Below are positions 21,223 to 50,355 of a DNA stretch of 57,330 nucleotides, piece after piece. The stretch spans positions 1 to 57,330 of the IMG/VR virus record IMGVR_UViG_3300027833_001471, one strand, 5' to 3'. Source of the stretch: a virus. The notes beneath the pieces are model-generated. The model had not been told where the DNA came from. It was given only the letters and a program-made list of their open reading frames with translations, and searched no databases. A program made the position numbers and the translations under genes. Each line of letters begins with the position of its first letter. The stretch's first letter is position 1.

Positions 21223-21230
21223 TTATGATA

Positions 21231-22771: not shown

Positions 22772-23244
22772 AAATTAAACTCCCCTAATCCTGGGATAGA
22801 TATTTCTGTTACAGTGCCATCATCTCCTGTAATGGTCAGGGTGATCTGACCTGTTATCACATCTTTCTCCCAACTAATTTCTGATCCTTCGATGTCAGCA
22901 GTACCGCTTGTTGAGCATGTAGCCCCTGACGCATCAGCACAATCAGCAAACATAGAGTCTACTAATTGTTTCGAGATTGTTGCGTATATTCTTGATTCAA
23001 CGTTTCTTAAGAACTTGTTTAATGTAGAGTTTTCTAGTTCACGCTCAATACGATCTGCTTCTGCATCAGCCGCATCTTCCAATTCTTTTTTTCTGTTAAA
23101 TGAAAGTTGTTCTATACTTAAAACATGCGTAGAGTAGCCCTGTCCATTAAATGACGGATTTTTAAATCCCCATTGCATTGGACTTGAAACTGCTACGTTA
23201 CTTACTAGTGTCAGCGTTATCGCTACTATTATCGTTTTCATCAT
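22768..23244 (-). CDS. csgF: Curli assembly factor CsgF
   Basis: 158 residues with a signal peptide (to VAVSS). The mature N-terminus MQWGFKNPSFNGQGY matches the E. coli CsgF opening (TFQFRNPNFGG), the segment that inserts in the CsgG channel. The C-terminus (EISWEKDVITGQITLTITGDDGTVTEISIPGL) matches CsgF's beta C-terminal domain (DRKTGQTSTIQVSGL). Slightly longer than E. coli CsgF (138) because of a Glu-rich helix. It overlaps the upstream gene by 47 bases and csgG by ATGA. Confidence 0.92.
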   Translation of the reverse strand: MMKTIIVAITLTLVSNVAVSSPMQWGFKNPSFNGQGYSTHVLSIEQLSFNRKKELEDAADAEADRIERELENSTLNKFLRNVESRIYATISKQLVDSMFADCADASGATCSTSGTADIEGSEISWEKDVITGQITLTITGDDGTVTEISIPGLGEFNF

Positions 23245-23566
23245 CTGCCTGTCCTGTTGAGTTGAAAGCCTTACTGCCTGCTTTGTATTCTTGTACTAGT
23301 CTATGCAACTCATCCTCACGCTGTGGGTTGAGCTTTGCTCTATATTCCAGTACCATACTTAGCTTACTGTTTAGTCTTATCATATCATTATCAAGCATTC
23401 GAACACGATCAACTAATTTGATCAGGGTGAACATAGTTTCACCGATGACTGGATCAATGGTTTCCGTCACCCATTTCCAAATAAAGAAAATGAAATAGCC
23501 CATGCCCATTGCCGCTATGATTGGAAAACCATATTCGCTTACAGCCTTGGCTAAATCAAATTCCAT
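23198..23566 (-). CDS. Membrane-anchored coiled-coil protein A
   Basis: 122 residues: one N-terminal membrane span (FPIIAAMGMGYFIFFIWKW), a helical coil with MLDNDMIRLNSKLS, and an acidic disordered tail. A paralogue of the 24016 gene product (same topology and 'NND/DND..., L.K' core). The same layout occurs in T4-like marine phages without known function. It leads directly into csgF. Confidence 0.75.
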   Translation of the reverse strand: MEFDLAKAVSEYGFPIIAAMGMGYFIFFIWKWVTETIDPVIGETMFTLIKLVDRVRMLDNDMIRLNSKLSMVLEYRAKLNPQREDELHRLVQEYKAGSKAFNSTGQADDENDNSSDNADTSK

Positions 23567-33708: not shown

Positions 33709-35414
33709 AAAGAGTTATTTTTACGACATATGACGATATTGAAAAAGAACAAGATCAATGGGGAACAAACCATTACGCTACTGAGTCTATTAAAACGTAT
33801 TTTGATAAACTAATCGCAAACAAAGAAGAATACGCTAACAGTCTAATTAACGTTGAGTTTAAATTTTACCATAACACAATGAAAGACTTTAATATTGATG
33901 CTGACTTAGAATTTACAAAGACTAATCTATACAAACACCATATCATGGCAGAGTTAGCTGATGATTACGATGAGGTTATGTATGTAGATATGGATGTTGT
34001 ATTCAACACAGAAAAGAACGTGTTTGACGAATTAGACTTGAGCGAAGGCATTCACATCCAAGTGCAAACAGATGAGGTCACGAACAAAGACATTGAAGGT
34101 GTCATGTTTGAAAATATCGGTAGTCGTAGCCCTACACTAAAGTATCACATCACGAAAGATTTGTTGGGTGGTGGAGACAATCATGTAATGAACACTGGCA
34201 TTATGATAGCCAAGTCAGAGCATATCAAACAGATTAAGTTTATGGAAAGATTGCCAAGTATCATTGAAAAAGTTGATGATCTTAAACGCAATGGCATTTC
34301 TGATGATCAATATAAATTTTTAAGAATGTATTACTATCCAAACAATGAATCTATATTTTCGTATATTATGGAGAGTGAAGCCATTCCATATGTTATTATG
34401 GAAGATAGATGGCATACACTTGTTGGCAAAGACCCCTCTGATTTAGATTGGGACAACATTGAGATAGCACACTTCATTAGCAAGAAGTTTAATATGTTTT
34501 TTAAAGACAAGACAAAGCTGATATATTCTATCTACATTGAAATACCCGACGAACGCTTAGACAATCCACGTGGACCTAACGATGATCCTGTCAATAAGAG
34601 TAAGCGAACACAAGAAAGATTGGCAGAATATAAAGATAAGTTGTATAATAACCATCTTGAATACGCACACAATCACGAAGCGACTTACATCCACTTTACG
34701 AGAGACAACCAATACGAAGAGTTTCGTGCTAGGTTCCCTGATCTATCAGAGTACGATGTAATCAATCTATATAAAGTATATCTATTAGATTACCTGACGC
34801 ATCAGTATGATCTGGTATTGTATGTAGATTTTGATGTTGTGTTTGTGTCTGATCATGATGTGTTTGGTTACCTTAGAGGCGAACATCTATTTTGCTGTTA
34901 TGCAACGAACGCTAAAGATGCTGGCGTAAATCTGTGGGATGCAAGGTATCTAAAAGCTTATGACAAAGACTTTAGATCGCCAGAAGCAAAGTATTGGAAT
35001 TCACATGCCATGTTATCTGAACAAGATGTAGACCCTGATAATTATGTTTTTAACACAGGTATCATGATGGCTAGTAGAGAAGTTATGGAAAAACTAGGGT
35101 ACTTTTCTGACATAAGCGAGACTATCGCTATGATGAAAGAACTCAAGGAAGACTCTATCTATCCACCTCAAGTACAAGCGTCTTTTGGTTACGATAACGA
35201 AACAATAATGTCATACAAAGTTAAAATGAATAACGTGCCTGTCCAAAGGCTATCTGATACATGGCATTTTAAGCATGTTGAGCAACCACTCGCCGCTTAC
35301 ACTAAGGGTACAGAAGAATACAAAACAAGCAAGTACACTCTTAACGCAGAAATAACTAAGCACAACAGCGTAATGGTTCACATGATTTCTAAGAACTTTG
35401 GATTACTTTTTTGA
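33705..35414 (+). CDS. Tandem-domain glycosyltransferase-like protein
   Basis: 569 residues made of two similar GT-A domains. Domain 1 has EVMYVDMDVVFN (D95/D97), domain 2 LVLYVDFDVVFV (D375/D377); each is followed by NTGIMIA or NTGIMMA and a 'W(H/-)' block (RWHTL, TWHFKH). The internal duplication gives two possible active sites, for example for adding two sugars in sequence. End of the rightward late operon; converges on the leftward DUF6356 genes with a 12-base overlap. Confidence 0.75.
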   Translation: MKRVIFTTYDDIEKEQDQWGTNHYATESIKTYFDKLIANKEEYANSLINVEFKFYHNTMKDFNIDADLEFTKTNLYKHHIMAELADDYDEVMYVDMDVVFNTEKNVFDELDLSEGIHIQVQTDEVTNKDIEGVMFENIGSRSPTLKYHITKDLLGGGDNHVMNTGIMIAKSEHIKQIKFMERLPSIIEKVDDLKRNGISDDQYKFLRMYYYPNNESIFSYIMESEAIPYVIMEDRWHTLVGKDPSDLDWDNIEIAHFISKKFNMFFKDKTKLIYSIYIEIPDERLDNPRGPNDDPVNKSKRTQERLAEYKDKLYNNHLEYAHNHEATYIHFTRDNQYEEFRARFPDLSEYDVINLYKVYLLDYLTHQYDLVLYVDFDVVFVSDHDVFGYLRGEHLFCCYATNAKDAGVNLWDARYLKAYDKDFRSPEAKYWNSHAMLSEQDVDPDNYVFNTGIMMASREVMEKLGYFSDISETIAMMKELKEDSIYPPQVQASFGYDNETIMSYKVKMNNVPVQRLSDTWHFKHVEQPLAAYTKGTEEYKTSKYTLNAEITKHNSVMVHMISKNFGLLF

Positions 35415-35684
35415 AGCCTTTTCAGCATCTTCTCGTTCGATTACACCCTTGAGTTCAGCAATGAGTTCTTCTGCTAACTCAACCTGTCTTAAGGTAATTC
35501 TGTGTGGAGTGTTAGGAAACAAAAACGGAATAAACGCATGAGTGTATCCAGTAATTGCATTGACCAAGCCAAAGGTACTTAGTTTTATAGCAAACCACAT
35601 GTGTTGGAAATATCCAGAACGAACTTCTTCTAAGTGTTCAGTATTAATCAAATAGCCATATCGGCCTAAGTTACCAAATTTCAT
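35403..35684 (-). CDS. DUF6356-like small membrane protein A
   Basis: 93 residues: GYFQHMWFAIKLSTFGLVNAITGYTHAFIPFLFPNTPH matches the alphaproteobacterial DUF6356 pattern (H near the start of a span, then 'HA..PFLFP.T'). One to two membrane segments. ATGA overlap with its paralogue upstream. Function of the family unknown. Confidence 0.7.
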   Translation of the reverse strand: MKFGNLGRYGYLINTEHLEEVRSGYFQHMWFAIKLSTFGLVNAITGYTHAFIPFLFPNTPHRITLRQVELAEELIAELKGVIEREDAEKASKK

Positions 35685-35890
35685 TTGTGATGCTCGAATG
35701 TTGTGTCTACTAAACTTGCCAATTTCTTTGCCGCATTCATAGATGATGCTTCAAGAGCAAATGGTAAGATAGCATGAATTGTACTTGTCACGAATACTGC
35801 TAATGACCAAAATACCATGTGTGATCCAATTTTAAGATGACCGAAGTATCCTGTGTCTGCCTTTTCGCAATGTGCTGTAAGTGTAGTCAT
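35681..35890 (-). CDS. DUF6356-like small membrane protein B
   Basis: 69 residues, paralogue of the next gene (GYFGHLKIGSHMVFWSLAVFVTSTIHAILPFALEAS). Late promoter TATAAATA at 35926-35919. The pair is separate from the flanking enzyme cassettes. DUF6356 is common in alphaproteobacteria, a host hint. Confidence 0.7.
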   Translation of the reverse strand: MTTLTAHCEKADTGYFGHLKIGSHMVFWSLAVFVTSTIHAILPFALEASSMNAAKKLASLVDTTFEHHK

Positions 35891-35918
35891 TTTGTTCTCC
35901 TTATATGATGTTACTACC

Positions 35919-35926
35919 TATTTATA
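35919..35926 (-). promoter_or_regulatory. T4-like late promoter (TATAAATA)
   Basis: Exact minus-strand TATAAATA 28 bases before the 35890 start, overlapping the last bases before the methyltransferase stop. Confidence 0.7.
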
Positions 35927-35928
35927 AT

Positions 35929-36543
35929 TCAATACCCAACAATTCCCAAAGCTGTCTCTGGTCTTACTCGAATATCCATGTAGTTAAACCAATCCGTGGT
36001 TCCTGTCTTTACGTGGTGATGATCTAATTGACTTTTTAAATGTTCTGTATCAAATGCACTCCAAAGAATACCTTTTTCATCTCGTGTGTATGATACATCC
36101 CCACCATCAAAGTTTAAATCATAATACTTGTCTCGAAATTTATCTAGGAATGTGTTGTTAGTTGGGTCTATGTAAGTGAATACAATCCTGTTCGTATATT
36201 TCGAAAGATGTCTAATGCAGTACAAAGCTTCATCTAATATGTGATGGGTAAACACACTATTCGCAAATACTATATCGTGCCATGGTATTTTTGGGAACGG
36301 CTCGTGAGCATTTCCGTTTGGGTTATAATAAGAGTGGTGTCTGTTCCAATGGATTGACTTCACGTTATTTGGTAAGGCATCTAATCCTTCTTTGCTAATA
36401 TCCAAGCACGTATACTTTTTAACATTAATTTCACCATCTAACAAGTTTCCCCTGTTACCACCAAAGTCTAGTACACTTTGCCAACTGTAATCAGGCACAC
36501 ACTGCTTAAATATAGCATATGTATTTGTTTTCCTAAACTTCAT
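35929..36543 (-). CDS. Class I SAM-dependent methyltransferase
   Basis: 204 residues from ATG 36543, which overlaps the upstream TGA (ATGA); GTG 36555 is an alternative. VLDFGGNRGNLL is motif I, YTCLDISKEGL the following acidic loop, DIVFANSVFTHH motif IV. Family resembles methyltransferase type 11/12. Last gene of the P450 cassette; a tailoring O-, N- or C-methylation is possible. Confidence 0.8.
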   Translation of the reverse strand: MKFRKTNTYAIFKQCVPDYSWQSVLDFGGNRGNLLDGEINVKKYTCLDISKEGLDALPNNVKSIHWNRHHSYYNPNGNAHEPFPKIPWHDIVFANSVFTHHILDEALYCIRHLSKYTNRIVFTYIDPTNNTFLDKFRDKYYDLNFDGGDVSYTRDEKGILWSAFDTEHLKSQLDHHHVKTGTTDWFNYMDIRVRPETALGIVGY

Positions 36544-36719
36544 TTCTTGTTCCACAAAACTATTATCATGATAACCTCACGATAAATTGGGATCATACAC
36601 CCCACAAATCTTGTTGCTTTATCGCATTTTTTCCACACAAGTGATGGTGGATACTTTTCTGTCAACATGAAAGCTACAATAGTCACTAGTATATATTGAA
36701 TTATGAATAGTTCTATCAT
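36540..36719 (-). CDS. Small membrane protein
   Basis: 59 residues with a hydrophobic N-terminal helix (ELFIIQYILVTIVAFML) and a second weaker one. Bounded on both sides by ATGA overlaps, which strongly supports it as a gene of the cassette. Function unknown. Confidence 0.65.
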   Translation of the reverse strand: MIELFIIQYILVTIVAFMLTEKYPPSLVWKKCDKATRFVGCMIPIYREVIMIIVLWNKK

Positions 36720-37318
36720 GGCAATATATCCGCAACTAAATGAATACGATCAATATCACTTGCATTTAATGCCGTGTGGTTACCCTTATCAGTATGAGCA
36801 AACGTCCAAAGTTCTAGTGGCAAATGCTTTACTTCGTCTTCAATGATCATAAGACAAGCTTCATCTGTTTGTATTGGGTAATGCAATCTTGGGATTGGAT
36901 CGATATGCCAATTCATACAAGTGTATGGTTTTGATTTTAATAGACGAACTCTGCCAATTTCATATTCAGTTTCCATAGCTTTATACATAGCTTCGAATAC
37001 TGTACCTTTAAAAACATCACACAACTCCCAGTCATATACTGACTTTGGAGACATTGGTATTCTAACATCTCCCTGTGGTGTAAGCCTGATGAAGAAGTCT
37101 GACTTACCTTTATCTGCGAAGTAACCAGCGCCAAAGCTGTAATCATCCGTATAGTCGGGTGCGGCGTTCAGACATATCTGTTGGGCGCTGTGTGGATTGG
37201 ATGGTTGGAACCATTCTAAATTTAAGCTGTCTAATTCTTCTAGCAGACCTTTAAACTGGGGCAACTTTATGTTATCATAATAAGTCAATGTTGAACATCT
37301 CACTTTCTTTGCCTTCAA
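36716..37318 (-). CDS. Asp/Asn beta-hydroxylase-like Fe(II) dioxygenase
   Basis: 200 residues. The C-terminal half has MNWHIDP (H138, D140) and, after a jelly-roll stretch, H181 and R191 in 'HTALNASDIDRIHLV', the HxD...H and 2-oxoglutarate Arg pattern of aspartyl/asparaginyl beta-hydroxylases. Overlaps the radical SAM fusion gene end by 44 bases. The fusion protein next door carries the same domain, as does the 43314 gene, so three homologous hydroxylases are in one cassette. Confidence 0.75.
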   Translation of the reverse strand: MKAKKVRCSTLTYYDNIKLPQFKGLLEELDSLNLEWFQPSNPHSAQQICLNAAPDYTDDYSFGAGYFADKGKSDFFIRLTPQGDVRIPMSPKSVYDWELCDVFKGTVFEAMYKAMETEYEIGRVRLLKSKPYTCMNWHIDPIPRLHYPIQTDEACLMIIEDEVKHLPLELWTFAHTDKGNHTALNASDIDRIHLVADILP

Positions 37319-39326
37319 TCGCTTTCAATACTTCATCGTAACTCTTGTCGAATATCGCTAGTTTGAGGAATATCCTATCATCATTTGAGAAGACGCTGTG
37401 CATCTGTTGTACGTTTAGTAAAGCACATTCATAGTAAACATCAATGTCTTCATCCCACGTAATAGGTCCCGATCCATTTAAAATTATATTTATAGCAGTG
37501 GCTGTTCCGTGATCACGATGAGCCGCTAAATGACTACCAGCTTCTTGGTGATAATATCGTGGGAATACTTCACACCCAACAATAGATGCTACTTGCCATG
37601 CAACCTCGTTAGCAACTTCACAGTCTTCAACATCATCAAATCTAATCACTTGTAACATTTCAAGTGTCTTCGTTTCCGTTTCGTTAGAGGCAGTAAATGC
37701 TTTAGATTTATCTTTATGCTCGTGGTATTCTGTTATCAAAGCATCTTTCAGTTCTTGAGTAACTGGTAGATTTTTCATATATTTTATGTTGGGTTCTTTC
37801 TCATCAACACCCAAGAACTTCACAACCTTTGAATAGTAACTCTTTTGCAGATATTGACGCGCCCTTCTTTTAATCATAGGGTTAGTGAACAACTCTGTGA
37901 ACGTCATTTTACGTAGCTCTTCGAATCCAAATCCAAGACATTGGTAGAACATCAAGAAAAATGTGGACACTTTTATCTCATCAAAATATCCTTCTTGCAA
38001 GTCTTTTACGTACTCAACAACCTCATCACTTGTCCAGTATTGGTTAGACCACTTGTTTTCCATATTAGATTGACGATCAATGGTATAACCAAAGTAATCT
38101 GATCTTTTGGATAATTCGGATGCAGTACCAAGTTCAAGAGGGCTAAAAGAATAAGCATCAAACAAATCCTTTCTTTCAAACAATTCCTTAGTCCATTCAT
38201 CCATTGTTTCTCTATTGTCGTGTGGCAATCCAGCAATGAAACTTCCATACACACTTAACGATCCACCGAATACTTCTTTTGACTTTTCAATCGTTTCAAA
38301 CACTTTCTCTTTTGGACAGCCTTTGCCAATTGATTTAGCTGACTCATAATTAAGAGATTCGACACCAAGAAACCACGCGCATACATTAATTCTTTTAAGT
38401 AAATCTAACTGTTGTGGGAATGCCGCTATAAGATCGATGCGAATGAAAGAAGAGAACTGCAACTTGACTGGAAGGTTCAGTTCTTCTATAGCCTCAGCAA
38501 TAGCCTCTAGTTTTACTGTTTGTTCGTTAAACGTGTCATCAATAATAACGTACTTCGTAGTACCATACAGATCATAGTTCTGCTGTAGTTCAGCCTTAAT
38601 GCATTCTTTATTCCTAAGAAAAGAATTGTCACCTTTCTTTTTACCTATAAGGGGATATGCACAGAACTTACATTTGAATATACAACCCCTACCAAACTCA
38701 ATGCCCATAGCATCTTCAGCATTCCAAAAATCTTCTGGGACGTAGTTTACTCTTTCGTTTCTAAAATCAAACAACGCACCTTTCTGGTCAAAATCAATAA
38801 CGTATGGGTAGTCTCCATATTCCTTGTTGTATTTAAGTTCTATTCCATTCTTGAGATGTTCTGTGATGTGAAGTGCTGGTGCTTCGCCCATGCCAACAAC
38901 AAAGTAATCCACACTTTCGCGTACTTCAGATGCGCGATAATAGGTCATCATACCACCATATACTGTCTTGACACCCTTCGAACGGATGTAGTCAGTCATA
39001 TCTTTTACTTCTTCATCACTGATAGGCCAACGCCAAAGAATGTTTTGCCTTGCACTATCACGAGTGTGGCGCTTGTTATAAACATCCTTACTCTTTCGCA
39101 TGAATAGAGAAGAACTAAACCCAACCCATAATGTGTTGTCACCAATTAGTTTGTCAAGGATTTCGTTTATGTTTCCTTTTTGCATGAAGTGGGTAAAGTT
39201 GTTCAATACAAATACTGAGTAGCCTTGATTTCTTAAATAGGACGCAATTTTATAACCACCAACAGCACGAGCCACGTTGAATACAGGGTCACTCCCCTCA
39301 GTCATAATGATAATGTCGTATGTCAT
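37275..39326 (-). CDS. B12-binding-like radical SAM protein fused to a hydroxylase-like domain
   Basis: 683 residues. Residues 1-170 look like a cobalamin-binding Rossmann domain (DIIIMTEGSDP.., VKTVYGGMMT, VVGMGEAPAL), although the B12 lower-ligand motif DxHxxG is not seen. The radical SAM core follows with GRGCIFKCKFCAYP (C215, C219, C222). The C-terminal ~90 residues form an Asp/Asn-hydroxylase-like cupin: HRDHG (H603, D605), H643 and R651. A radical SAM core joined to a mononuclear iron oxygenase-like domain is unusual. One base separates it from the ligase gene. Confidence 0.85.
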   Translation of the reverse strand: MTYDIIIMTEGSDPVFNVARAVGGYKIASYLRNQGYSVFVLNNFTHFMQKGNINEILDKLIGDNTLWVGFSSSLFMRKSKDVYNKRHTRDSARQNILWRWPISDEEVKDMTDYIRSKGVKTVYGGMMTYYRASEVRESVDYFVVGMGEAPALHITEHLKNGIELKYNKEYGDYPYVIDFDQKGALFDFRNERVNYVPEDFWNAEDAMGIEFGRGCIFKCKFCAYPLIGKKKGDNSFLRNKECIKAELQQNYDLYGTTKYVIIDDTFNEQTVKLEAIAEAIEELNLPVKLQFSSFIRIDLIAAFPQQLDLLKRINVCAWFLGVESLNYESAKSIGKGCPKEKVFETIEKSKEVFGGSLSVYGSFIAGLPHDNRETMDEWTKELFERKDLFDAYSFSPLELGTASELSKRSDYFGYTIDRQSNMENKWSNQYWTSDEVVEYVKDLQEGYFDEIKVSTFFLMFYQCLGFGFEELRKMTFTELFTNPMIKRRARQYLQKSYYSKVVKFLGVDEKEPNIKYMKNLPVTQELKDALITEYHEHKDKSKAFTASNETETKTLEMLQVIRFDDVEDCEVANEVAWQVASIVGCEVFPRYYHQEAGSHLAAHRDHGTATAINIILNGSGPITWDEDIDVYYECALLNVQQMHSVFSNDDRIFLKLAIFDKSYDEVLKAIEGKESEMFNIDLL

Positions 39327-39327
39327 T

Positions 39328-40098
39328 CTATCCCTTACGCGGTCTATTAAAGTCTACTGTAGTTCCATCTCTACCTTTGTAAAAGAATATGCCATGTTTA
39401 GCGTCGAATGAAACTTTATCTTTAGTATCGTACCAATCGTCAAACACACATATATCACCTTCGACAAGCAAGTTGCCATCTCCAACAGAAATCCAACTAC
39501 AATTAATTATGTCCCCAAGAATAGTAGTGTTGGGTGGTGTAATTGATTTTGCATATTCTACTTCAGCCATGTTAGTAAACCTATGCATAATTGCATTAGG
39601 TCCTATTTCAGTCATGCCCCATATAAGTATAACTTCACACCCTCTTCCAACAAACGCTTCTATTATATCATATGTAACAGGCTCTGATCCAACTAGAAAA
39701 ATGTGTCCCTCAAGATCAAGAGTTTTAAATGTTTTAGTCTTCATAACAGCCTTGGCTTGTTTTGGGGTCAAGTGGCTGTGTGTGTATTTAGCTACATTCC
39801 TAACATAATCGTATGGATTAAACCTAACGAGATCAACTGTCGCACCTACGGAGAGAGCGGGTATTGTTTGTGCAAATAACCCCCCTGCCTTTTCTGGGCT
39901 TAAACATGTGTATATTACACTCGAATTGGTTATACGTTGTACATAACAAGCGTTCTTTGCATCTATTGCTATCTTTGATGGTGTTTGTTCAATTGCTTTT
40001 GGTTCACCACTTGTGCCTGACGTGTAAATGATCTTTCCATTTTCAATCACATCATCGAAGTAATTATTGTCATACTTATCATAAAACTGTCTAATCAT
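39328..40098 (-). CDS. Minimal AMP-forming ligase (ANL superfamily)
   Basis: 256 residues from ATG 40098. A3 P-loop YTSGTSGEPK (26-35), A5 WGMTEIGP, A7 'DDWYDTKDKV', and the hinge A8 'YKGRDGTTVDFN', after which it stops. Typical ANL enzymes run 500 residues or more, with about 120 more N-terminal residues and a C-terminal subdomain with the catalytic Lys (A10); both are absent here. It could activate a carboxylic or amino acid without the thiolation step, or act with a partner. Overlaps the halogenase-like gene by 8 bases. Confidence 0.85.
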   Translation of the reverse strand: MIRQFYDKYDNNYFDDVIENGKIIYTSGTSGEPKAIEQTPSKIAIDAKNACYVQRITNSSVIYTCLSPEKAGGLFAQTIPALSVGATVDLVRFNPYDYVRNVAKYTHSHLTPKQAKAVMKTKTFKTLDLEGHIFLVGSEPVTYDIIEAFVGRGCEVILIWGMTEIGPNAIMHRFTNMAEVEYAKSITPPNTTILGDIINCSWISVGDGNLLVEGDICVFDDWYDTKDKVSFDAKHGIFFYKGRDGTTVDFNRPRKG

Positions 40099-41221
40099 CG
40101 AAGTAACCAAACTCGAATTCTTTGTCTACATATCTTAACACATGATGACCCATGAACCTTTCGGTAATTGTTTTGAACATTTCATCATCTTGATTTGCAA
40201 CATATCTTTTCAAAACATTTGTCTGTTCGATACGTTTACTTGACGTCTCTTTAGCCCAATCCCAAAACTCATTTTCGTATATAGAACCACCATGGTAGAT
40301 CAGGTTGATTAAATCTTCTACTGCACGATAGTTTAGGATACATAGTTCGTTAGCTTTATCTTGGGTAATTTCTCCACGTATGTATTGAGAATGAATTTCG
40401 GCATTCTTGACTGTCATGTAAAGAGAGTTTGCACTCATTGGTTCAAAGAACACTGCTCGGTTCCCACTCTTTAGTATTTTGCCATCAATCGTTTTCTTAC
40501 AATAATATGGTTTTAAATCAAATGTTCTAAAATTACTCCTATCATCATCTGATGCTTCCGTGATGCGAATAAGTTCATCTTCTGCTTCTTTACGTGTGCA
40601 AAACTCATTATTGTATAGGAAACCATGGGATGTTCTGTGTTGTAGTGGGATAACAAACATCCAACCATACTTGTGGGCAACGTGTTTAGTAAAGCCAAAA
40701 TCAGATGGGGTTGGATCATCGTAAACTAATGCAGAGTTTAAAACAAGGTTACACTCTTCGTAATCAGAGAAATTTGTTGGTCTGCCACGACAATCAATTA
40801 CATAATCATATTCTGTCAAGTCTTTATATTCTACGTTAGCATCAACACGTCTATAATTAGAGTACATCTTTTGTAATCTCTTCAATCCCATTTCGGCAAA
40901 ATCACGAGCATCAAAGTGAATAGCATGATAACCAGATTGGAATGGAAATATGATTTCTTTTTCGCGCCAATCAATATACTGCGTACCATACTTAGTCGTG
41001 CTGTTGAGTTCTTTTGCTTCTGTTGCGAATATGAAATCAAATGCTTGACCAATTGCAAACGTCACTTCAGACGTGGTACTTTCTCCAACCCCAAGAATGG
41101 GTTTGTTGCTATCGTAGATGTGAGTTACCTCGCAGTCAATGCCTCTGTTCTTAAAGTCTTTTAGTATACAACCAGTAGTTAAGATGCCTGCACTACCAGC
41201 ACCAAGTATTGCAATCTTCAT
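40091..41221 (-). CDS. Flavin-dependent tryptophan-halogenase-like protein
   Basis: 376 residues. FAD motif LGAGSAG (G7/G9/G12), GVGEST (44-49) where tryptophan halogenases have 'GVGEAT', K77 in TTKYG...W at the place of the catalytic Lys (Lys79 of PrnA), and GWMFVIPLQHRTSHG, the W-x-W-x-I-P signature with Phe for the second Trp. Shorter than PrnA (about 540). May be a halogenase or a related flavin hydroxylase. ATGA overlap with the GNAT gene; a flavin reductase would come from the host. Confidence 0.85.
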   Translation of the reverse strand: MKIAILGAGSAGILTTGCILKDFKNRGIDCEVTHIYDSNKPILGVGESTTSEVTFAIGQAFDFIFATEAKELNSTTKYGTQYIDWREKEIIFPFQSGYHAIHFDARDFAEMGLKRLQKMYSNYRRVDANVEYKDLTEYDYVIDCRGRPTNFSDYEECNLVLNSALVYDDPTPSDFGFTKHVAHKYGWMFVIPLQHRTSHGFLYNNEFCTRKEAEDELIRITEASDDDRSNFRTFDLKPYYCKKTIDGKILKSGNRAVFFEPMSANSLYMTVKNAEIHSQYIRGEITQDKANELCILNYRAVEDLINLIYHGGSIYENEFWDWAKETSSKRIEQTNVLKRYVANQDDEMFKTITERFMGHHVLRYVDKEFEFGYFDD

Positions 41222-41730
41222 TCGTCACCCCTAACTTCAAAATATCTATCAGCATTTAATAACCAAATATTCTGATCTACCCCAAACACTTCTTCAGTGC
41301 TTACTAGGTCTACCAAACCATTTCTTTCGAGAATGTAATATAGCTTATTAAGTCTTCCCATCTTGCCACTTGCATCGTTATTTATGTTGGTTGTAATGTA
41401 TATTGGATCGTTAGTAGCATATATGACCTTTGGAAGATGGTAGTAGAACATCCAACAGTTCATATGGTTTTTGCTCAAACCCTTTGGTCTTGAGTATAAT
41501 TGACATCCTCTATATAAAGCCCTAACGCCATCTCTAAATTGATGTACACCAGATATGCCTACCATCTTGCCATCAACTGATGTCTCGAACCACACGCCAC
41601 CATCGTCAAGAGTCTTTTGGAAATTCATGACTTCTAACGAGTTGTTGTTTTTATAACCAAGTTTGTCACATTCTTCTATAAAAGTTAGAAGTTGGGGTGT
41701 CACTTCGTGTAGTTGATTAGTGCGTATCAT
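41218..41730 (-). CDS. GNAT-like acyltransferase
   Basis: 170 residues. GVWFETSVDGKMVGISGVHQF has the GNAT beta-2/beta-3 pattern, and later 'LYYILERNGLVDLVSTEEVFGVDQNIW' its C-terminal half, but the CoA loop (R/Q-x-x-G-x-G/A) is not clear. ATGA overlaps on both sides place it firmly in the P450 cassette. Could acylate the cassette product. Confidence 0.6.
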   Translation of the reverse strand: MIRTNQLHEVTPQLLTFIEECDKLGYKNNNSLEVMNFQKTLDDGGVWFETSVDGKMVGISGVHQFRDGVRALYRGCQLYSRPKGLSKNHMNCWMFYYHLPKVIYATNDPIYITTNINNDASGKMGRLNKLYYILERNGLVDLVSTEEVFGVDQNIWLLNADRYFEVRGDE

Positions 41731-42974
41731 GAGAACTTGAATTCTAAATCTTTGTATACGGTAGTTGACCCAAACATCGCTGGTAATAGTTCTGGCTCTT
41801 TCGTAATCTCAAAATTGTCAAACCTATCAAGCAAGCTATTAATTATCATTTCAAGAAAGTGCTTGACAAGGAAGTCGCCAGTACAGTGGTGAGGTCCGTA
41901 AGCAAGGGTTACTGGAAGTGGTTCGTCATCTCGTTCAAGACTAAACTCTAGGGGATTTTTAAAGTATTTGGGGTCACGGTTTGCTCCATATGTATACAAA
42001 AGAATTCTACCATTTGCATCAAACTTGTATCCATGGTAATCTATGTCTTCTGTGATATCACGTATGCCACCCTTTAGTGGGGCGAGACGCATACTTTCTC
42101 TTGCAAACTTTGAGACAAGTGTTCTATCTGCTTTAATTCTCTTGACAATATCAGGATACTTGGCAAGGTTCATAGCTAGGTTCTGGTACATACTCAGAGC
42201 AAAGGTTGGAATTACAACAGTCCATAAGCTTTGGATAAACATATATCCCATCCTACGTGGGTTGTCATTGTATATCCATTGCTTGTCACTCAAGTTCTTC
42301 GTCATATTAATCATTGTATCGTCATCAACACCCTCAAGATGATAATAGCTAATAGCTTCATCTACGATACGTGCAAACATATTATAGAACTCAGTAGTTT
42401 CGGCAACTGGCTTATCGTAGTCAAAGTCTGGGTTGAAATTAGAGAAGACACCCCCAGGGCGCATCCACTCGTGAAAGCCATCCTTAACATAATCCTCTGA
42501 CACATCTAGTTCTGCCCAAGGAAATTCTATAGTCTGTATCTGAGTGTCGGTAACAATCCTACCGATGACGTCATAAGACACGAATGGTTTGTTCTTTTCT
42601 ATCTTATCGAACCATTTGTCTATATTTGACTTCAGCGCGTCAATCATAAAGCCAGAACGTCTTTTCGCCCAATTAAGGCTTTCCTTCTTCGCAAGATGAT
42701 GATGCGGACCTTCTCTTAGTGTCAATGCATAACCTGCTCTCCAAATACCACCAAGTGGTGTTGGGTCAAAAGGTGCTGGTGATGTCTTAGCTAAGCTGAA
42801 TTCTTCATTCATCTTTGAGGCTTCTTTGAGCCTATCCATTGAGAAGATTATCCAGTGTTTGTATATTGGATGCCAAAAGAAACCTCTTGGTTCGTTTTCG
42901 AAACAAAAAGTAGTGTGTTCATCCATGTTATACAGGAAATCGGGATTAACGATTTCAAAATCATTTTTTCTCAT
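41727..42974 (-). CDS. Cytochrome P450
   Basis: 415 residues, full P450 length for a soluble bacterial enzyme. K-helix E293-x-x-R296 (ESMR), the PERF-like 'NPLEFSLERD', and the heme loop LAYGPHHCTGDFL with ligand Cys364. N-terminal 'W.R' C-helix region GPHHHLAKKESLNWAKRR. No membrane anchor. It would need heme and a host ferredoxin. P450s are rare in phages. Lies 15 bases after a virion-like gene that has its own late promoter, so it is probably made late in infection. Confidence 0.92.
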   Translation of the reverse strand: MRKNDFEIVNPDFLYNMDEHTTFCFENEPRGFFWHPIYKHWIIFSMDRLKEASKMNEEFSLAKTSPAPFDPTPLGGIWRAGYALTLREGPHHHLAKKESLNWAKRRSGFMIDALKSNIDKWFDKIEKNKPFVSYDVIGRIVTDTQIQTIEFPWAELDVSEDYVKDGFHEWMRPGGVFSNFNPDFDYDKPVAETTEFYNMFARIVDEAISYYHLEGVDDDTMINMTKNLSDKQWIYNDNPRRMGYMFIQSLWTVVIPTFALSMYQNLAMNLAKYPDIVKRIKADRTLVSKFARESMRLAPLKGGIRDITEDIDYHGYKFDANGRILLYTYGANRDPKYFKNPLEFSLERDDEPLPVTLAYGPHHCTGDFLVKHFLEMIINSLLDRFDNFEITKEPELLPAMFGSTTVYKDLEFKFS

Positions 42975-42989
42975 AATATACTCTAATTG

Positions 42990-43292
42990 TTAGAGGTCGG
43001 CAGTCTCTGGTGTAAATGAAATAGTCCAACCATCTGAAATCAAAGATGCCTTTGCAGAAGCAGAAACATTAGCCATAAGAGTAGTGTATTGAGAAGCGGC
43101 TTCATCTGTCCAGTTTGTTACAATAGTATGTGTCCCTGAGTCTACCGACGTAGTTGTTGTTCTACCACCATTTGTAGTTTGCTCATTGAGAAAAGATAAT
43201 ACATCAGAAGGCAGATAACTAGCAATATGAGAAAGAGCCTCATCTGTAGTGATATCTGTTGGTGGTGTGAAAGTAACTGTTTGTTGTACCAT
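42990..43292 (-). CDS. Small Thr/Ser-rich virion-like protein
   Basis: 100 residues, Thr/Ser-rich beta pattern (QQTVTFTPPTDITTDEALSHI, GTHTIVTNWTDEA), typical of small phage structural proteins. First gene after the late promoter at 43318-43311, with AAGGAGATT before the ATG. A plausible substrate of the tailoring enzymes that follow in the same operon, though no recognisable leader/core peptide or carrier-protein Ser motif is present. Confidence 0.65.
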   Translation of the reverse strand: MVQQTVTFTPPTDITTDEALSHIASYLPSDVLSFLNEQTTNGGRTTTTSVDSGTHTIVTNWTDEAASQYTTLMANVSASAKASLISDGWTISFTPETADL

Positions 43293-43310
43293 ATTTAATC
43301 TCCTTTTGTC

Positions 43311-43318
43311 TATTTATA
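43311..43318 (-). promoter_or_regulatory. T4-like late promoter of the P450 cassette (TATAAATA)
   Basis: Exact minus-strand TATAAATA 18 bases before the 43292 start. Genes from 43292 to 35929 have gaps of at most 16 bases, so one late transcript can carry them. Confidence 0.75.
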
Positions 43319-43823
43319 CGTTATCCCAGAAACTCTTCTTCTTTCTACCATGTACGATTAAATGCAACCTATCTTCGTTAGAGTTGTTCTCAACCCAATG
43401 TGGGTAATGCACATTAAGGACAAATGATGCCCCAGAGTGATAAGGAACTTCTTTCCCATCTAATATGAACTTACTTCCTTTTGGATATGTTATTGACATA
43501 TTAAGAGTGTCAAGCCAATTGTGTTCTGGTACATCTCTATGTTCAGCAATCATACCACCAGACTTTATAAGCAGAAACCTACAATCATCTATTTTATCAT
43601 ATGGTAATGACTTAATAAAATCTGTAGTCTTAGGACATTTCAATCCTACTTCTGTGATATTATCTTTTAAGAACAAAGATACAGCAAACCAGTCTTTATG
43701 ACCATCTTGTGGTCTATTGATTGTTAATGTTTCTTTGACTGATAAGTATTCTTGTTCTATATCATGACAAGGAACATTAAAGTTCATTTTAACCCAAGGG
43801 ACGTCACTGCTTCTATAATACAT
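43314..43823 (-). CDS. Asp/Asn beta-hydroxylase-like Fe(II) dioxygenase
   Basis: 169 residues. AEHRDVPEHN (H95, D97), then H139/H142 in NVHYPHWVENNS and R152 in DRLHLIVHG complete the HxD...H...R pattern of aspartyl/asparaginyl beta-hydroxylases; the whole second half aligns with that fold. N-terminal 'VPWVKMNFNVP' fits as well. Preceded by its own late promoter at 43931-43924. Protein Asp/Asn hydroxylation or free-substrate oxidation both possible. Confidence 0.8.
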   Translation of the reverse strand: MYYRSSDVPWVKMNFNVPCHDIEQEYLSVKETLTINRPQDGHKDWFAVSLFLKDNITEVGLKCPKTTDFIKSLPYDKIDDCRFLLIKSGGMIAEHRDVPEHNWLDTLNMSITYPKGSKFILDGKEVPYHSGASFVLNVHYPHWVENNSNEDRLHLIVHGRKKKSFWDNV

Positions 43824-43912: not shown

Positions 43913-43940
43913 TTGACAACAAGTATTTATAGTGTAGAAT
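43913..43940 (+). promoter_or_regulatory. Sigma70-type early promoter
   Basis: TTGACA 43913-43918, 16-base spacer (which contains the opposite-strand late box), TAGAAT 43935-43940. Confidence 0.6.
43924..43931 (-). promoter_or_regulatory. T4-like late promoter (TATAAATA)
   Basis: Exact minus-strand TATAAATA about 100 bases before the 43823 start; nested inside the divergent early promoter at 43913-43940. Confidence 0.6.
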
Positions 43941-45271: not shown

Positions 45272-46231
45272 ATGGACGCACTCACTATATGGATGGTGGT
45301 AGGATTTATATTCGCCGCTTATGCCGTAATTGCAAATGATTCAGTACAAACATTAGGTACATGGATCGCATCAAACAATGAAAAGTTTCATTGGAGAACA
45401 ATGTGGATAGCCGCATCGGCTGTTCTAATCTATACATTATGGTATGGATGGTACATGAATGGTGGAGACATCAGTTATGGACGATTAAACAAAATTCCAT
45501 TTCAAGAAGTAAAATGGTATCACGCACTAGCACCCGCAGTTCTGTTGGGGCTAACACGTTTCGGCGTACCAGTATCAACATCATTCCTAGTTCTATCAGC
45601 ATTCGCTAGTACATTTGTACTAGAAAAGATGTTGATGAAGTCAATGATGGGTTATGCAGTTGCGGCTGTGGCGGCATACGTCATATGGCTCGTAGTAAGC
45701 CGCCTGTTGGACGAAGCGAAGCCTGTTAAAGAAAACCATAAAACGGCATGGAGAGTGGCTCAGTGGGTCACTACAGGCTTCCTGTGGTTCACTTGGTTAT
45801 CGCACGATATGGCTAACATCGCGGTGTTTTTACCACGTCAGTTAGACGTACCATTAATGCTTATGATCACAGCAGTATTTGTGATTGGGCTTGGCTTCAT
45901 GTTTCGTGAAGGTGGTGGTAAGATTCAACAGATTGTAGTCGAGAAACATAACACTCGCTACGTTCGATCTGCTACAATCATCGATCTGGTGTATTGGTTG
46001 ATCCTATACTTCTTTAAGGAACTGAATGATATTCCAATGTCAACGACTTGGGTATTTGTAGGATTGCTTTGTGGGCGTGAATTGGCTATGGCTAGTTACA
46101 CAGGCAAGGCAAAATTTAAGACAGTCTTCCCACTGATTGGGCGAGACTTTATGAAGATGATGGTGGGTCTTGGCGCATCCTTGGGTATCGTGCTACTTAT
46201 CCATTACATCTTAGTACCAAACGGATTTTAA
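45272..46231 (+). CDS. PiT-family (PHO4-like) phosphate transporter
   Basis: 319 residues, 9-10 membrane spans. The first span carries IANDSVQTLGTW and a second block WLSHDMANIAVFLPR, the duplicated PiT signature (ANDxxN.. type), and GVPVSTSFLVLSAFAS matches PiT's 'G.P.STTH'. Shorter than bacterial Pit (about 420-500). Located in the inner membrane; likely imports phosphate or a related anion during infection. AAAGGAGAAAC ribosome site; hemJ follows 16 bases later. Confidence 0.8.
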   Translation: MDALTIWMVVGFIFAAYAVIANDSVQTLGTWIASNNEKFHWRTMWIAASAVLIYTLWYGWYMNGGDISYGRLNKIPFQEVKWYHALAPAVLLGLTRFGVPVSTSFLVLSAFASTFVLEKMLMKSMMGYAVAAVAAYVIWLVVSRLLDEAKPVKENHKTAWRVAQWVTTGFLWFTWLSHDMANIAVFLPRQLDVPLMLMITAVFVIGLGFMFREGGGKIQQIVVEKHNTRYVRSATIIDLVYWLILYFFKELNDIPMSTTWVFVGLLCGRELAMASYTGKAKFKTVFPLIGRDFMKMMVGLGASLGIVLLIHYILVPNGF

Positions 46232-46247: not shown

Positions 46248-46679
46248 ATGAGTAGCTACGAAATTGTTTTGATAATACATATCTTGGCAGTAATATCATG
46301 GATGGCAGGGCTGTTCTATTTGCCAAGAGTAATGGTGTATCATTCCCAAGAGACGAAACCTGGGGATGATATGGATAAAGTTTTCCAAACAATGGAAGTA
46401 AAACTGTTAAGAGCAATAATGATGCCAGCAATGTTTGCCACATTATTCTCTGGTATTGCTTTGATTGGTTTGGGATACGTTGATTGGTCACTCACGTGGC
46501 CTTATGTAAAGCTTGTGAGTGTATTCTTGATGTTTGGCTTTCATGGCTTCTTGAGTAAACAGCGTAAGAACTTTATCAAAGGTGAGAATATCCCATCACC
46601 AAAGAAGATGCGGATATTAAATGAAGTACCTACGATCTTGTTGATCATTATCGTGGCGTCAGTAATTCTTAAATATTAA
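46248..46679 (+). CDS. hemJ: Protoporphyrinogen IX oxidase HemJ
   Basis: 143 residues, four membrane spans. HILAVISWMAGLFYLPRVMVYH, then VKLLRAIMMPAMFATLFSGI, KLVSVFLMFGFHGFLSKQRKNF and RILNEVPTILLIIIV match HemJ block for block, including the conserved His and the 'RxLNExPT' end. HemJ is the form used by alphaproteobacteria and many cyanobacteria. It oxidises protoporphyrinogen IX (the HemF product) to protoporphyrin IX in the inner membrane. Sits far from hemEFC but completes the pathway to protoporphyrin. Confidence 0.95.
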   Translation: MSSYEIVLIIHILAVISWMAGLFYLPRVMVYHSQETKPGDDMDKVFQTMEVKLLRAIMMPAMFATLFSGIALIGLGYVDWSLTWPYVKLVSVFLMFGFHGFLSKQRKNFIKGENIPSPKKMRILNEVPTILLIIIVASVILKY

Positions 46680-46882: not shown

Positions 46883-46911
46883 TTGACATCTGGCCTTTTT
46901 AATGATATATA
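46883..46911 (+). promoter_or_regulatory. Sigma70-type promoter of the tmRNA gene
   Basis: TTGACA 46883-46888, 17-base spacer, TATATA 46906-46911; predicted start near 46918, just before the tmRNA acceptor piece. Confidence 0.75.
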
Positions 46912-46919
46912 CTATATGT

Positions 46920-47240
46920 GAACGTTGAAGTGACGTAAATACGGATCGGACTTGGGGGCAGTACCCAACGCCTCCACCACAAGCACATTACGCCTTACTG
47001 CAATAAGGTGTTTTTGCAGAGACACAGACCTCACGAGGGTTGAAGATGATGTGCTTTTGATGGGGGCGAACTAGGATCGACGGACGGAATAGCTGAGTGG
47101 AGTTCATCGGGTGATCGCGTATAGATCAATTAAACTAAATGCAAATGAAAATTTCGCACCATCTGGATTTGCCTTAGCGGCATAATCACAGGGGGTTGGC
47201 GACTTACCTAGCAACAGAAAAGTCGTACTTAAAACAATTA
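46920..47240 (+). ncRNA. ssrA: Circularly permuted two-piece tmRNA (ssrA)
   Basis: Acceptor piece first (~46922-46979): T-arm TTGGG/CCCAA with seven-base loop (46952-46968), acceptor strand CGCCTCC 46969-46975, discriminator A, encoded CCA 46977-46979. Coding piece from 47062: GGGGGCG (47062-47068) pairs with the acceptor strand, followed by a D-arm-like GAACTAGGATCGACGG. The excised segment 46980-47061 is closed by AAGCACAT/ATGTGCTT (46981/47049), which brings the processing sites together. Tag frame 47141-47185 encodes ANENFAPSGFALAA then TAA. A hairpin/pseudoknot follows (GTTGGCGACTT, GCAAC, AAGTCG). The 3' end (~47232-47240) is estimated. This gene order is the alphaproteobacterial/marine-cyanobacterial form. 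Confidence 0.93.
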
Positions 47241-47256
47241 TAAAGGAAAAGATGTA

Positions 47257-48069
47257 ATGAATAGACTATTAACAACAACAGCAGTGATGGTACTGCTAAC
47301 GGGAACTGCACATGCAGACCAAACTTTGATTTCACCAGCAGCACCACTAGTAACTGGCTCAATCGAAACTGTAATCGCAGAAACTGGAACAACTGATAAG
47401 TACGGAGCAACTACATCTTTTGATCTCGACGTTAACACACCAGACGGTATTGTGACTGGCGGCATTTCTTTTAAAGCAACTCCAAGTACATCAGTATCTG
47501 TTGATGAATGGAATATTGCTACAACTGTAGGCGCGGCAACGTTGTCTTTTGGTGACCAAGGTAACATCTGGTTCGATACAGAAAGTGCCGCAGTAAACGG
47601 TACAATCGAAGAGCCAACGATGGCTAAAGAGAGCTTGCAAGTATCAGCAATGGGTGCAACTGTTGCACTTGGTTTTGATGCAATCGCCACAGACGTCACA
47701 GATTTGGAAAACGTCCAAGTAGGATATGGTTTTGACGCAAGCATTCTTAGTGTTGCAACCGTAGCTGACTATAACGTAGACTCAAAAGAGTGGGTTCTTG
47801 CGGGTCGTGCAGACACAGCAGGTATGCTTGAAGGTGTACGTCTTGGTGGTGCAGTATCATACGGTTCGCTAAGTGAGAAAACAAACTTCGAAGCAGATGC
47901 TACTGTAATGGGGATCACTGGTTACTTGAACGGTGACACAGATGACCTAACGCAAAACGTTGGTGCATCATACATCATGGGTGAAGTATTGACAGTAGAA
48001 GGCGCAGTAAACTATAACTTGAATACAGAAGTGGTTGCACCATCTGTAACGTTGTCTTTCGACTTCTAA
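47257..48069 (+). CDS. Alphaproteobacterial-type outer-membrane porin
   Basis: 270 residues: signal peptide (MNRLLTTTAVMVLLTGTAHA, cleavage after AHA), then amphipathic beta strands (GITGYLNGD, NVGASYIMGEVLTVEGAVNYNL) and a C-terminal Phe (TLSFDF), the Bam-recognition end of porins. Acidic overall, like Rhodobacter porins, but short (about 290-300 usual). AAAGGAAAAG ribosome site. It begins about 20 bases after the tmRNA, with no terminator between, so it may share that transcript. Terminator at 48117. Confidence 0.75.
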   Translation: MNRLLTTTAVMVLLTGTAHADQTLISPAAPLVTGSIETVIAETGTTDKYGATTSFDLDVNTPDGIVTGGISFKATPSTSVSVDEWNIATTVGAATLSFGDQGNIWFDTESAAVNGTIEEPTMAKESLQVSAMGATVALGFDAIATDVTDLENVQVGYGFDASILSVATVADYNVDSKEWVLAGRADTAGMLEGVRLGGAVSYGSLSEKTNFEADATVMGITGYLNGDTDDLTQNVGASYIMGEVLTVEGAVNYNLNTEVVAPSVTLSFDF

Positions 48070-48116: not shown

Positions 48117-48151
48117 AAAGGGGTTGCTAGTTAATACAGCAACCCTTTTTT
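48117..48151 (+). terminator. Rho-independent terminator
   Basis: AAAGGGGTTGC 48117-48127 pairs with GCAACCCTTTTTT 48139-48151 (loop of 11), ending in T6. Closes the porin transcript. Confidence 0.9.
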
Positions 48152-48160
48152 GTTTCTTTG

Positions 48161-48168
48161 TATAAATA
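48161..48168 (+). promoter_or_regulatory. T4-like late promoter (TATAAATA) of heme oxygenase
   Basis: Exact TATAAATA 30 bases before the heme oxygenase start, right after the porin terminator. Confidence 0.75.
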
Positions 48169-48197
48169 CAAGAAAGCAGTGCAAAGAGAGGTATATT

Positions 48198-48740
48198 ATG
48201 ACAAATAAACTAAAACAACTCACATGGGCGCATCACCAAGCGGCTGAACGTCGAAAGTTCGCAAAGCAATTAATCAGTGGTGGCATTGATCCTTTCGTAT
48301 ATTACAAATTTCTAAACTGCCAGTATCTCGTATACAAGATGCTCGAAGAACTTGTAATCATTCCACCCAATCTAACAACAATCTATAGAGCGCCTCGTAT
48401 CCTACAGGATATCGAAGAGCTTAGCGAAATATATGGCTTTGATGATATTGACCATTACCCCAAATCAGTCGGTAAATGTATGACGCATATGCAAGGTCTT
48501 GCAGACGCAGACAATAATGACGGTCTACTATCACATATGTACGTTCGTCACTTTGGTGAATTACATGGTGGGCAGATAATCAAAGCCAAGACCCCAGGTA
48601 AGGGTATCATGTACGAATTTGAAGGTGACACTAAGGTTCTTATCGAAGAATTTAGGAAGCTTCTCCACGATGGTATGGAAGAAGAAGCCAAGCGTTGCTT
48701 TGACTTCGCTTCAGAATTATTTGATGAGCTATCAAAATAG
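48198..48740 (+). CDS. ho1: Heme oxygenase (biliverdin-forming)
   Basis: 180 residues from ATG 48198 (AGAGAGG upstream); a longer in-frame start at 48150 would lie in the terminator and is rejected. Proximal His13 in THE 'WAHHQAAE' helix (H-x-x-A-E), and MYVRHFGELHGGQIIKAK, the distal-helix signature (GxLxGG). Slightly short for bacterial HO (about 200-230). Opens heme to biliverdin IX-alpha using ferredoxin. Two genes downstream is a bilin reductase, giving a heme-to-bilin route; heme oxygenase genes are known from marine phages. Confidence 0.92.
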   Translation: MTNKLKQLTWAHHQAAERRKFAKQLISGGIDPFVYYKFLNCQYLVYKMLEELVIIPPNLTTIYRAPRILQDIEELSEIYGFDDIDHYPKSVGKCMTHMQGLADADNNDGLLSHMYVRHFGELHGGQIIKAKTPGKGIMYEFEGDTKVLIEEFRKLLHDGMEEEAKRCFDFASELFDELSK

Positions 48741-48971: not shown

Positions 48972-49672
48972 TGTTATTTAAATTTAAAAAAAATACAATA
49001 ACAGTAGACGCTTTTACTGATCAGGAAAATGTTGCCAAGACGCCAATTGCTTCTAGCACAAAATATGTTCCTGATTGGTTTAAGTCTATGAAGCCTACCA
49101 AGGCGTATGCCCAAGATGGGATGGTGGTTGTCTCTAGTACATTCAAGAAGTGTCCTGGAATGATCGACAATCTAAAGCACAGCTTCACTATCCCAGCATG
49201 GTCTGACTTCATTGTCAAGGCTACAGATAATGGCATCGTCAAACAGTTCCCTCATTCTGAATTTGATTATGGGGCGCAATATCACAATGACCCCGAAACA
49301 TCACCTATTGGAGCATTCGCACCAAAAGTGCATGTTAAGATTTTGTCGCCGTGGTATCTCAAGGAAAAGTCAGGCGTAAACTTTTATCAGTCACAGGCGT
49401 TCTGGTCATTCAACGCAACCAATTCTACTATATTGATACCACCGGGTGTTGTTAATTATAAGCACCAACACAGTACACATATCAACATGTTCATAACTAA
49501 AGATTTGCAATGTGATTTTGAACGTGGTGACGCATTAATGTATTTGCACCCAATGTCTGAGGACAAAGTTGTTATCAAAACACATGTAGTAGATACAAAT
49601 GAATACAACAAGATCAAAGGGTCTACATATTACCCCAAGTTCACAAATGGGTATAGGGAGATGATGGAATGA
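48971..49672 (+). CDS. Phage hypothetical protein
   Basis: 233 residues, soluble alpha/beta. Blocks such as STKYVPDWFKSM, KKCPGMIDNLKHSFTIPAWSDF and PKVHVKILSPWYLKEKSG look like a conserved hypothetical of T4-like marine phages. No function. Coupled by TAATG to the basic protein and by ATGA to the bilin reductase, so it may act with the bilin pathway. Confidence 0.7.
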   Translation: MLFKFKKNTITVDAFTDQENVAKTPIASSTKYVPDWFKSMKPTKAYAQDGMVVVSSTFKKCPGMIDNLKHSFTIPAWSDFIVKATDNGIVKQFPHSEFDYGAQYHNDPETSPIGAFAPKVHVKILSPWYLKEKSGVNFYQSQAFWSFNATNSTILIPPGVVNYKHQHSTHINMFITKDLQCDFERGDALMYLHPMSEDKVVIKTHVVDTNEYNKIKGSTYYPKFTNGYREMME

Positions 49673-50355
49673 GTTTTTCGTTATGGGGGCGTTTGGATAA
49701 TTACGCTGATGATTTGACTAAGCGTTTCGACAAATCTTTTGTGAGATACGACAACCCTAAGTACACTGAAAACATGAAGTTCGAAGGTTGGACAGACACG
49801 TTTTGGCATTCAGATAAGATCGGTAAGTGCCATCTAAAAACAATTCAACCAAAAGATGTTAAGTCTTTGTGGTTGATGCACATCAACATTTTTCCTAAAG
49901 AGGGCATTGAACTTCCAATCTTGGGCTTTGATATCGTAGCAGGACCCAAAAAGATCACTGGATCGTTTATGGACTTCTCACCATTACATGGGTATGGGCA
50001 TCCATACAACGAATATATGAAACAAGCCATCTTAGGATTAGAATGGATTAAACCACGTGAGTTACCAGATTGGGCTAAAGAAATATTCTCAGATGATATG
50101 ATTGCTGTTGGCAACATACGAGAGGGGCATGAGTTGGATCAGTTCATCTCAGTCACATCTCAACTAGTGACATATTACTTGAAGAACTTGGAAGAACAGG
50201 CAGTTGTATCAAACCGTGATACACTTCCTATACTGAATAAATACTGCTCAAACCAAAAGCTAAATCCTCATTTGCACAGGTCAATTTTGGCTATGGGCAT
50301 CAGTGAAGAAGACAAGGAATCTTACGTAAACAACGTACTCTTCGAGGAAAAATAA
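49669..50355 (+). CDS. pcyX: Ferredoxin-dependent bilin reductase (PcyA/PcyX-like)
   Basis: 228 residues. MHINIFPKEGIELPILGFDIV lines up with PcyA 'LHCVMFPRLEYDLPMFGMDIV': His71 and Asp88 match PcyA His88 and Asp105 with the same 17-residue spacing. RELPDWAKEIFS, the YC..QK.N segment and the SYVNNVLFEE end match the family C-terminus. The place of PcyA Glu76 is not Glu, so the product may be phycoerythrobilin-like rather than phycocyanobilin. Marine phage PcyX enzymes paired with heme oxygenase have been described from metagenomes; symbol given on that basis. Needs reduced ferredoxin. Confidence 0.88.
   Translation: MSFSLWGRLDNYADDLTKRFDKSFVRYDNPKYTENMKFEGWTDTFWHSDKIGKCHLKTIQPKDVKSLWLMHINIFPKEGIELPILGFDIVAGPKKITGSFMDFSPLHGYGHPYNEYMKQAILGLEWIKPRELPDWAKEIFSDDMIAVGNIREGHELDQFISVTSQLVTYYLKNLEEQAVVSNRDTLPILNKYCSNQKLNPHLHRSILAMGISEEDKESYVNNVLFEEK

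Follow-up and report, generated by a model that had tools for sequence, protein, structure and literature searches.

The window analyzed here, a 57 kb stretch of viral DNA (57,330 nucleotides), is a fragment of the genome of a T4-like phage that encodes topoisomerase II subunits, UvsX, a gp41-type helicase, gp32 and gp59. It contains a leftward block of genes (35403-43823) which we tentatively interpret as a mobile, late-expressed and phage-specific biosynthetic cassette, which, late in infection, might yield a small molecule or lipid that is N-acylated and oxidised. The genes of the block are as follows.

43314-43823, minus strand: ABH1, a 2OG-Fe(II) oxygenase of the Asp/Asn-hydroxylase type (PF05118, E 2.5e-16)
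42990-43292, minus strand: vir100, a 100-aa protein with a ferredoxin-like fold (structure model)
41727-42974, minus strand: cytochrome P450 (PF00067, E 1.1e-11)
41218-41730, minus strand: GNAT-fold N-acyltransferase, a core gene (AlphaFold2 model and Foldseek)
40091-41221, minus strand: FH, a flavoprotein of the Trp-halogenase family (PF04820, E 2.3e-28; phrog_2928, 2.6e-64)
39328-40110, minus strand: core-only ANL ligase, a core gene (PF00501, E 1.1e-17, profile positions 167-359 of 384)
37275-39326, minus strand: rSAM, a B12-type radical SAM protein with a C-terminal 2OG-Fe(II)-like domain (PF04055, E 4e-16)
36716-37318, minus strand: ABH3, an Asp/Asn-hydroxylase-like 2OG-Fe(II) oxygenase (weak PF05118 match, E 3.9e-4; alignment)
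36540-36719, minus strand: small membrane protein of 59 aa, overlapping ABH3 and MT (reading frame)
35929-36555, minus strand: MT, a class I SAM-dependent methyltransferase (weak Methyltransf_12 match, E 3.1e-5)
35681-35890, minus strand: mem69, a small DUF6356 membrane protein (PF19883, 1.4e-6)
35403-35684, minus strand: mem93, a small DUF6356 membrane protein, a core gene (PF19883, 4.1e-10)

Six pairs of genes overlap, namely P450-GNAT, GNAT-FH, FH-ANL, rSAM-ABH3, ABH3-small membrane protein and small membrane protein-MT. An earlier note on this DNA had described a run of overlapping leftward enzyme genes and likened it to the tool set of a small natural-product cluster carried by a phage. 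All the enzymes that it named are present, as judged from Pfam matches and, for GNAT, from structure, and their classes are those of such a cluster, here in a T4-like phage; its gene list is extended by the two DUF6356 proteins that end the block (35403-35890). ABH1, in which the HxD..H..R motif is present, is accessory and adjoins the cassette in L002, L003 and L004 only. The 59-aa membrane protein is kept in L002, L003 and L006 and has analogues (c12/c40) at other loci, and the DFGGNRGN motif of MT is invariant in the alignment.

A scan of IMG/VR with FH, rSAM, P450 and ANL as queries identified about 20 contigs with the block, which represent 14 clusters of P450 genes (95% nucleotide identity). 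In every contig that covers the region, the order P450-GNAT-(FH)-ANL-rSAM-MT is kept, the fuller form continuing after rSAM with ABH3/2OG-MT-(DUF6356 x2). The variation among the cassettes is modular: FH is missing in L052, L053, L054 and L056, and DUF6356 is missing and ABH3 inverted in L052-L054. The 2OG domain that ends the rSAM protein of the window is encoded by a gene of its own in L009-L011, L013 and L052-L054; L005 lacks it. Because the same gene order recurs in 14 distinct cassettes, the cassette is more than a chance assembly; homologues scattered in unrelated orders, the outcome that the earlier note had set against its own reading, were not found.

The flanks of the cassette differ. 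In the window its convergent neighbor is an rSAM/glycosyltransferase operon; in L005, L009, L011 and L013 it comes after glycosyltransferases and fibre-like repeat proteins; and in L007, L008, L012 and L014 a tail-fibre-like gene takes the convergent position. G001 and G004 have few other genes in common and their clamp loaders are 30% identical, whereas the identities of the cassette genes are 79% (P450), 85% (FH), 73% (rSAM), 70% (GNAT), 63% (ANL) and 46% (MT). Given this gap between a backbone at about 30% and cassette genes at 46-85%, the block is transferred as one unit, even between distantly related phages. The median dN/dS of the cassette enzymes is 0.05-0.22, which indicates purifying selection. 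These observations bear on the possibility that the genes are an unlinked pile of morons, without a common pathway, in a variable locus flanked by late genes. The site is indeed variable, with glycosyltransferases and other metabolic genes, and both FH and DUF6356 can be missing. However, the fixed order in 14 distinct cassettes largely refutes such an origin; block transfer also speaks against it, as does a second cassette in which the core of GNAT, ANL and DUF6356 recurs, and we consider it very improbable.

This second, shorter cassette was found by scanning IMG/VR with DUF6356 and is present in other phage contigs (L103, L104, L107-L119). Its common form is 2OG hydroxylase-GNAT-[flavin halogenase]-DUF6356-core-only ANL-c1, where c1 is a protein of about 250 aa; the GNAT is 41-46% and the ANL 41-43% identical to the respective proteins of the window. 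In both cassette types, the ANL is short of about 150 residues at its N-terminus and stops soon after motif A8. Neither a P450 nor a full-length rSAM was detected on the twelve second-cassette contigs searched, which may be fragments. Since the second cassette has the same core, GNAT, ANL and DUF6356 can be regarded as the core and the oxidative enzymes as exchangeable. Six of the second-cassette contigs encode a flavin halogenase (FDH) which, being only about 20% identical to FH, belongs to a different subfamily; judging from these sequences, a flavin halogenase-type enzyme appears to have been recruited beside the core from two subfamilies. In several contigs, tricarboxylate-transporter-like membrane and binding proteins, recognized by sequence, are encoded beside the second cassette (L109:12383-14852); the binding protein had no Pfam match.

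Loss of active-site residues in most homologues, the other outcome that had been set against the idea of a functional enzyme set, is not observed: the cofactor and catalytic motifs of P450, the radical SAM protein and FH are kept. In P450, the ExxR motif and the haem-ligand Cys364 (HHCTG) are found in all 20 sequences compared. Of the acid-alcohol pair of the I-helix, the Thr is kept and the acid is replaced by Pro (TVVIPTF), a substitution that, at the level of sequence, points to atypical chemistry and not to loss of the fold. The protein is TxtE-like and weakly matches NCBIfam models of RiPP and amino-acid P450s; a motif search of the window revealed no ORF with a 2Fe-2S motif that could be its ferredoxin partner. 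Cytochromes P450 have been described in Mycobacterium phage Adler and other viruses (PMC9405906); the cassette P450 is likewise virus-encoded but is part of a pathway-like operon.

The FAD motif GxGxxG of FH (G7-A-G-S-A-G12) is invariant in the cassettes, and Lys77, the equivalent of Lys79 of PrnA, is invariant in all cassettes and all relatives compared. The position of PrnA Glu346 is occupied by Ser263, invariant in the cassettes, within a PMSANS segment instead of the PLESTG of Trp halogenases, and this position varies among related phage proteins too. A canonical tryptophan halogenase is thus doubtful, and the enzyme may halogenate, hydroxylate or carry out another flavin oxidation; the assignment of a halogenase-like flavoprotein in the earlier note stands as to family and catalytic lysine and is in doubt as to actual halogenation. 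The flavin-dependent halogenase-like genes of cyanophages and pelagiphages (PrnA-like; cyanophage VirX1) belong to the same superfamily as FH, which is 33-35% identical to the S-SSM7 and S-SSM5/S-MS29 proteins, and keep GxGxxG and the catalytic Lys. In the cyanophage loci inspected, however, the halogenase-like gene is solitary and lies near genes for replication or photosynthesis, without a P450/rSAM/ANL/GNAT block, and the Ser at the Glu346 position distinguishes the cassette FH.

In the ANL, the A3 P-loop, A5 (WGMTE), A7 (D) and A8 (GR) are kept in the alignments, and its distant matches are to fatty-acyl ligases. The C-terminal domain of ANL enzymes normally supplies the adenylation lysine. 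Adenylation is not certain because, in both cassette types, the C-terminal subdomain with the A10 Lys is absent. Pfam gave no match for GNAT, the AlphaFold model of which matches GNAT structures (Foldseek E 3e-6, TM about 0.57). The CxxxCxxC motif of rSAM (215-CIFKCKFC, residues 215-222) has invariant Cys residues; cobalamin binding is uncertain, with a weak PF02310 match (E 0.009) and no DxHxxG. The radical SAM core and a similar domain layout are shared with the B12-binding enzymes PhpK, lipid B12-rSAM, HpnJ and ApyD, from which the cassette protein differs by the fused 2OG domain; its matches to all four (for PhpK, lipid B12-rSAM and HpnJ, NCBIfam models) are far below the equivalog cut-offs.

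The earlier note had also placed the cassette behind late promoters, and this proposal gains support from the distribution of the box TATAAATA, of which the window has 14 copies where 4.7 are expected, a threefold enrichment seen in 0 of 100 shuffles. One copy lies 26 bp before the start of vir100 (43311-43318) and another 36 bp before mem69 (35919-35926), and ABH1 has its own upstream copy (43924-43931). Among the relatives, the box precedes the first cassette gene by 26-42 nt in six loci, a weaker ATAAATA-type box precedes the cassette in others, and no late box was seen before the cassette in L028, L029, L053 and L054; in L029, L053 and L054, P450 directly follows a SPASM-like radical-SAM gene. 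These boxes are of the T4 late-promoter type, from which expression of the cassette late in infection can be predicted.

Under the tentatively favored scenario of a biosynthetic cassette, the enzymes would form one pathway, in which the core ANL activates a carboxylic acid as the adenylate, which the core GNAT uses to acylate an amine. The DUF6356 proteins, as the membrane component of the core, would place this acylation at or near the inner membrane, and the exchangeable P450, flavoprotein, 2OG hydroxylases, B12-type radical SAM protein and methyltransferase could tailor the acid or the product, putatively a small molecule or lipid.

A different substrate is conceivable, with the cassette decorating a polypeptide, either a virion or fibre protein or vir100, by hydroxylation, methylation, acylation and oxidation of aromatic residues as in the maturation of RiPPs or protein cofactors. 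The late-type promoters are compatible with this, as are the neighboring fibre-like, SPASM radical-SAM and glycosyltransferase genes, which also fit glycan decoration. So is the weak match of P450 to RiPP and amino-acid P450s. FH weakly matches QhpG, a flavoprotein with a halogenase-like fold that dihydroxylates a peptidyl Trp (PMC7876137), but the score is 16 against a cut-off of 240, and no partners of the QhpC/QhpD type were seen. The NCBIfam matches in general are far below the curated cut-offs. The only candidate for a RiPP precursor peptide is vir100, which directly precedes P450 in 11 contigs, has a nearly invariant C-terminus (F-T/S-P-E-TADL) and evolves fast (median dN/dS 0.35). Yet its model (pLDDT 93) is a stable, well-folded ferredoxin-like domain, not a leader-core peptide, and it is absent from the cassettes of L007, L008, L012, L014, L028, L029 and L052-L054. 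The suggestion that the gene next to the cassette is virion-like could not be upheld, as vir100 has no detectable virion relative in PHROG, Pfam, PDB or BFVD. To our knowledge, RiPP pathways do not usually include an ANL and a pair of DUF6356 membrane proteins. Taken together, we regard polypeptide decoration as rather unlikely.

Remodelling of the membrane, by late acylation, hydroxylation and methylation of a host aminolipid or fatty acid, is a further reading that we consider unlikely. It draws on the weak match of ABH1 to the model of the lipid A hydroxylase LpxO, on the lipid B12-rSAM and hopanoid models matched by rSAM, on the resemblance of ANL to fatty-acyl ligases and on that of the DUF6356 proteins to small membrane proteins of alphaproteobacteria, as well as on a FabB-type synthase, the beta-ketoacyl-ACP synthase I encoded near the cassette in L009 (16397-17605), L010, L011 and L013. 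All these matches are distant, however, and FabB is confined to one phage group. Neither a flavoprotein of the halogenase family nor a P450 resembling TxtE is typical of lipid head-group pathways. Finally, GNAT and 2OG enzymes occur in pathways of DNA or nucleotide hypermodification, and in the window (12184-14413) the genes for an N6/N4 DNA methylase and a DNA modification protein of the Mom family are neighbors. A role of the cassette in such hypermodification is nonetheless improbable in the extreme: the late-type promoters, DUF6356, the Asp/Asn-hydroxylase-type 2OG enzymes, P450 and the flavoprotein do not fit, and the cassette is not accompanied by any nucleotide-linked gene.

Outside the contigs described above, relatives are scarce. 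In 50,697 phage records searched with tblastn, P450, rSAM and GNAT had no relative and ANL had a single weak match. Scans of genome contigs that depended on short conserved motifs, which distant relatives can escape, yielded no cellular relative of rSAM and one relative of FH (30% identity); the latter is from a Polyangiaceae MAG and has none of the other cassette genes in its vicinity. Plasmid searches returned generic relatives only (below 30% identity), and in these limited genome and plasmid searches no cellular pathway with the same enzyme set was found; the cassette may have a bacterial ancestor. A defence function was considered and set aside, the sole match being that of the radical SAM protein to the candidate model PDC-M51A, which was taken as generic. 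Among 14 control genomes, DUF6356 had matches in Caulobacter only, a distribution that weakly suggests an alphaproteobacterial host; no paper on the function of DUF6356 was found.

The biosynthetic enzymes of the cassette are thus inherited together, as a block carried by phages. Phage-borne biosynthetic gene clusters have been described as rare and as residing mostly in temperate phages (Dragos et al., 2021, cited in PMC10452541); the cassette is likewise a multi-enzyme, natural-product-like set but differs in residing in T4-like phages. Solitary phage halogenases, viral P450s and phage-borne gene clusters are thus known kinds, and, in line with the earlier claim that no phage counterpart has been described, the literature yielded no description of the combined gene set or of its two-type modular architecture. 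A broader and more speculative proposition, which we hold with less assurance than the biosynthetic cassette itself, is that T4-like phages have evolved and exchange a natural-product pathway family of their own, with a membrane core of truncated ANL, GNAT and DUF6356 to which P450, radical-SAM, halogenase-family and 2OG modules are added interchangeably. This family would be unrelated to known cellular clusters and would produce, late in infection, a bioactive acylated compound or lipid. Multi-step specialized metabolism is unexpected in phages that have no known lysogenic state; if the cassette is a pathway, phages of this kind keep and exchange it, and a defined gene set for new chemistry becomes available. 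The core common to the two cassette types is a first handle on the DUF6356 family and the truncated ANL enzymes.

Several other genes of the window deserve mention. Genes for haem and bilin metabolism (9596-12107, 46248-46679, 48150-48740 and 49669-50355) encode uroporphyrinogen decarboxylase, coproporphyrinogen oxidase, porphobilinogen deaminase, HemJ (UPF0093) and a ferredoxin-dependent bilin reductase, together with a heme-oxygenase-like ORF recognized by eye. For phages, genes for HemO, bilin reductase and AlaS have been described (PMC11480375); the mid-pathway haem enzymes of the window are not among them and might also provide the P450 with haem. The region 17241-23250, with a CHASE2 adenylate/guanylate cyclase, FecR, CsgG and curli-type genes, is arranged as in Pelagibacter phage HTVC008M. 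A protein encoded at 8486-9559 combines an ATPase-like N-terminal half with a GNAT C-terminal half, and a 319-aa PHO4-type phosphate transporter (45272-46231) was identified by a weak match. The window also contains a tmRNA gene (46887-47276; ARAGORN tmRNA*, probably permuted) with the tag ANENFAPSGFALAA.
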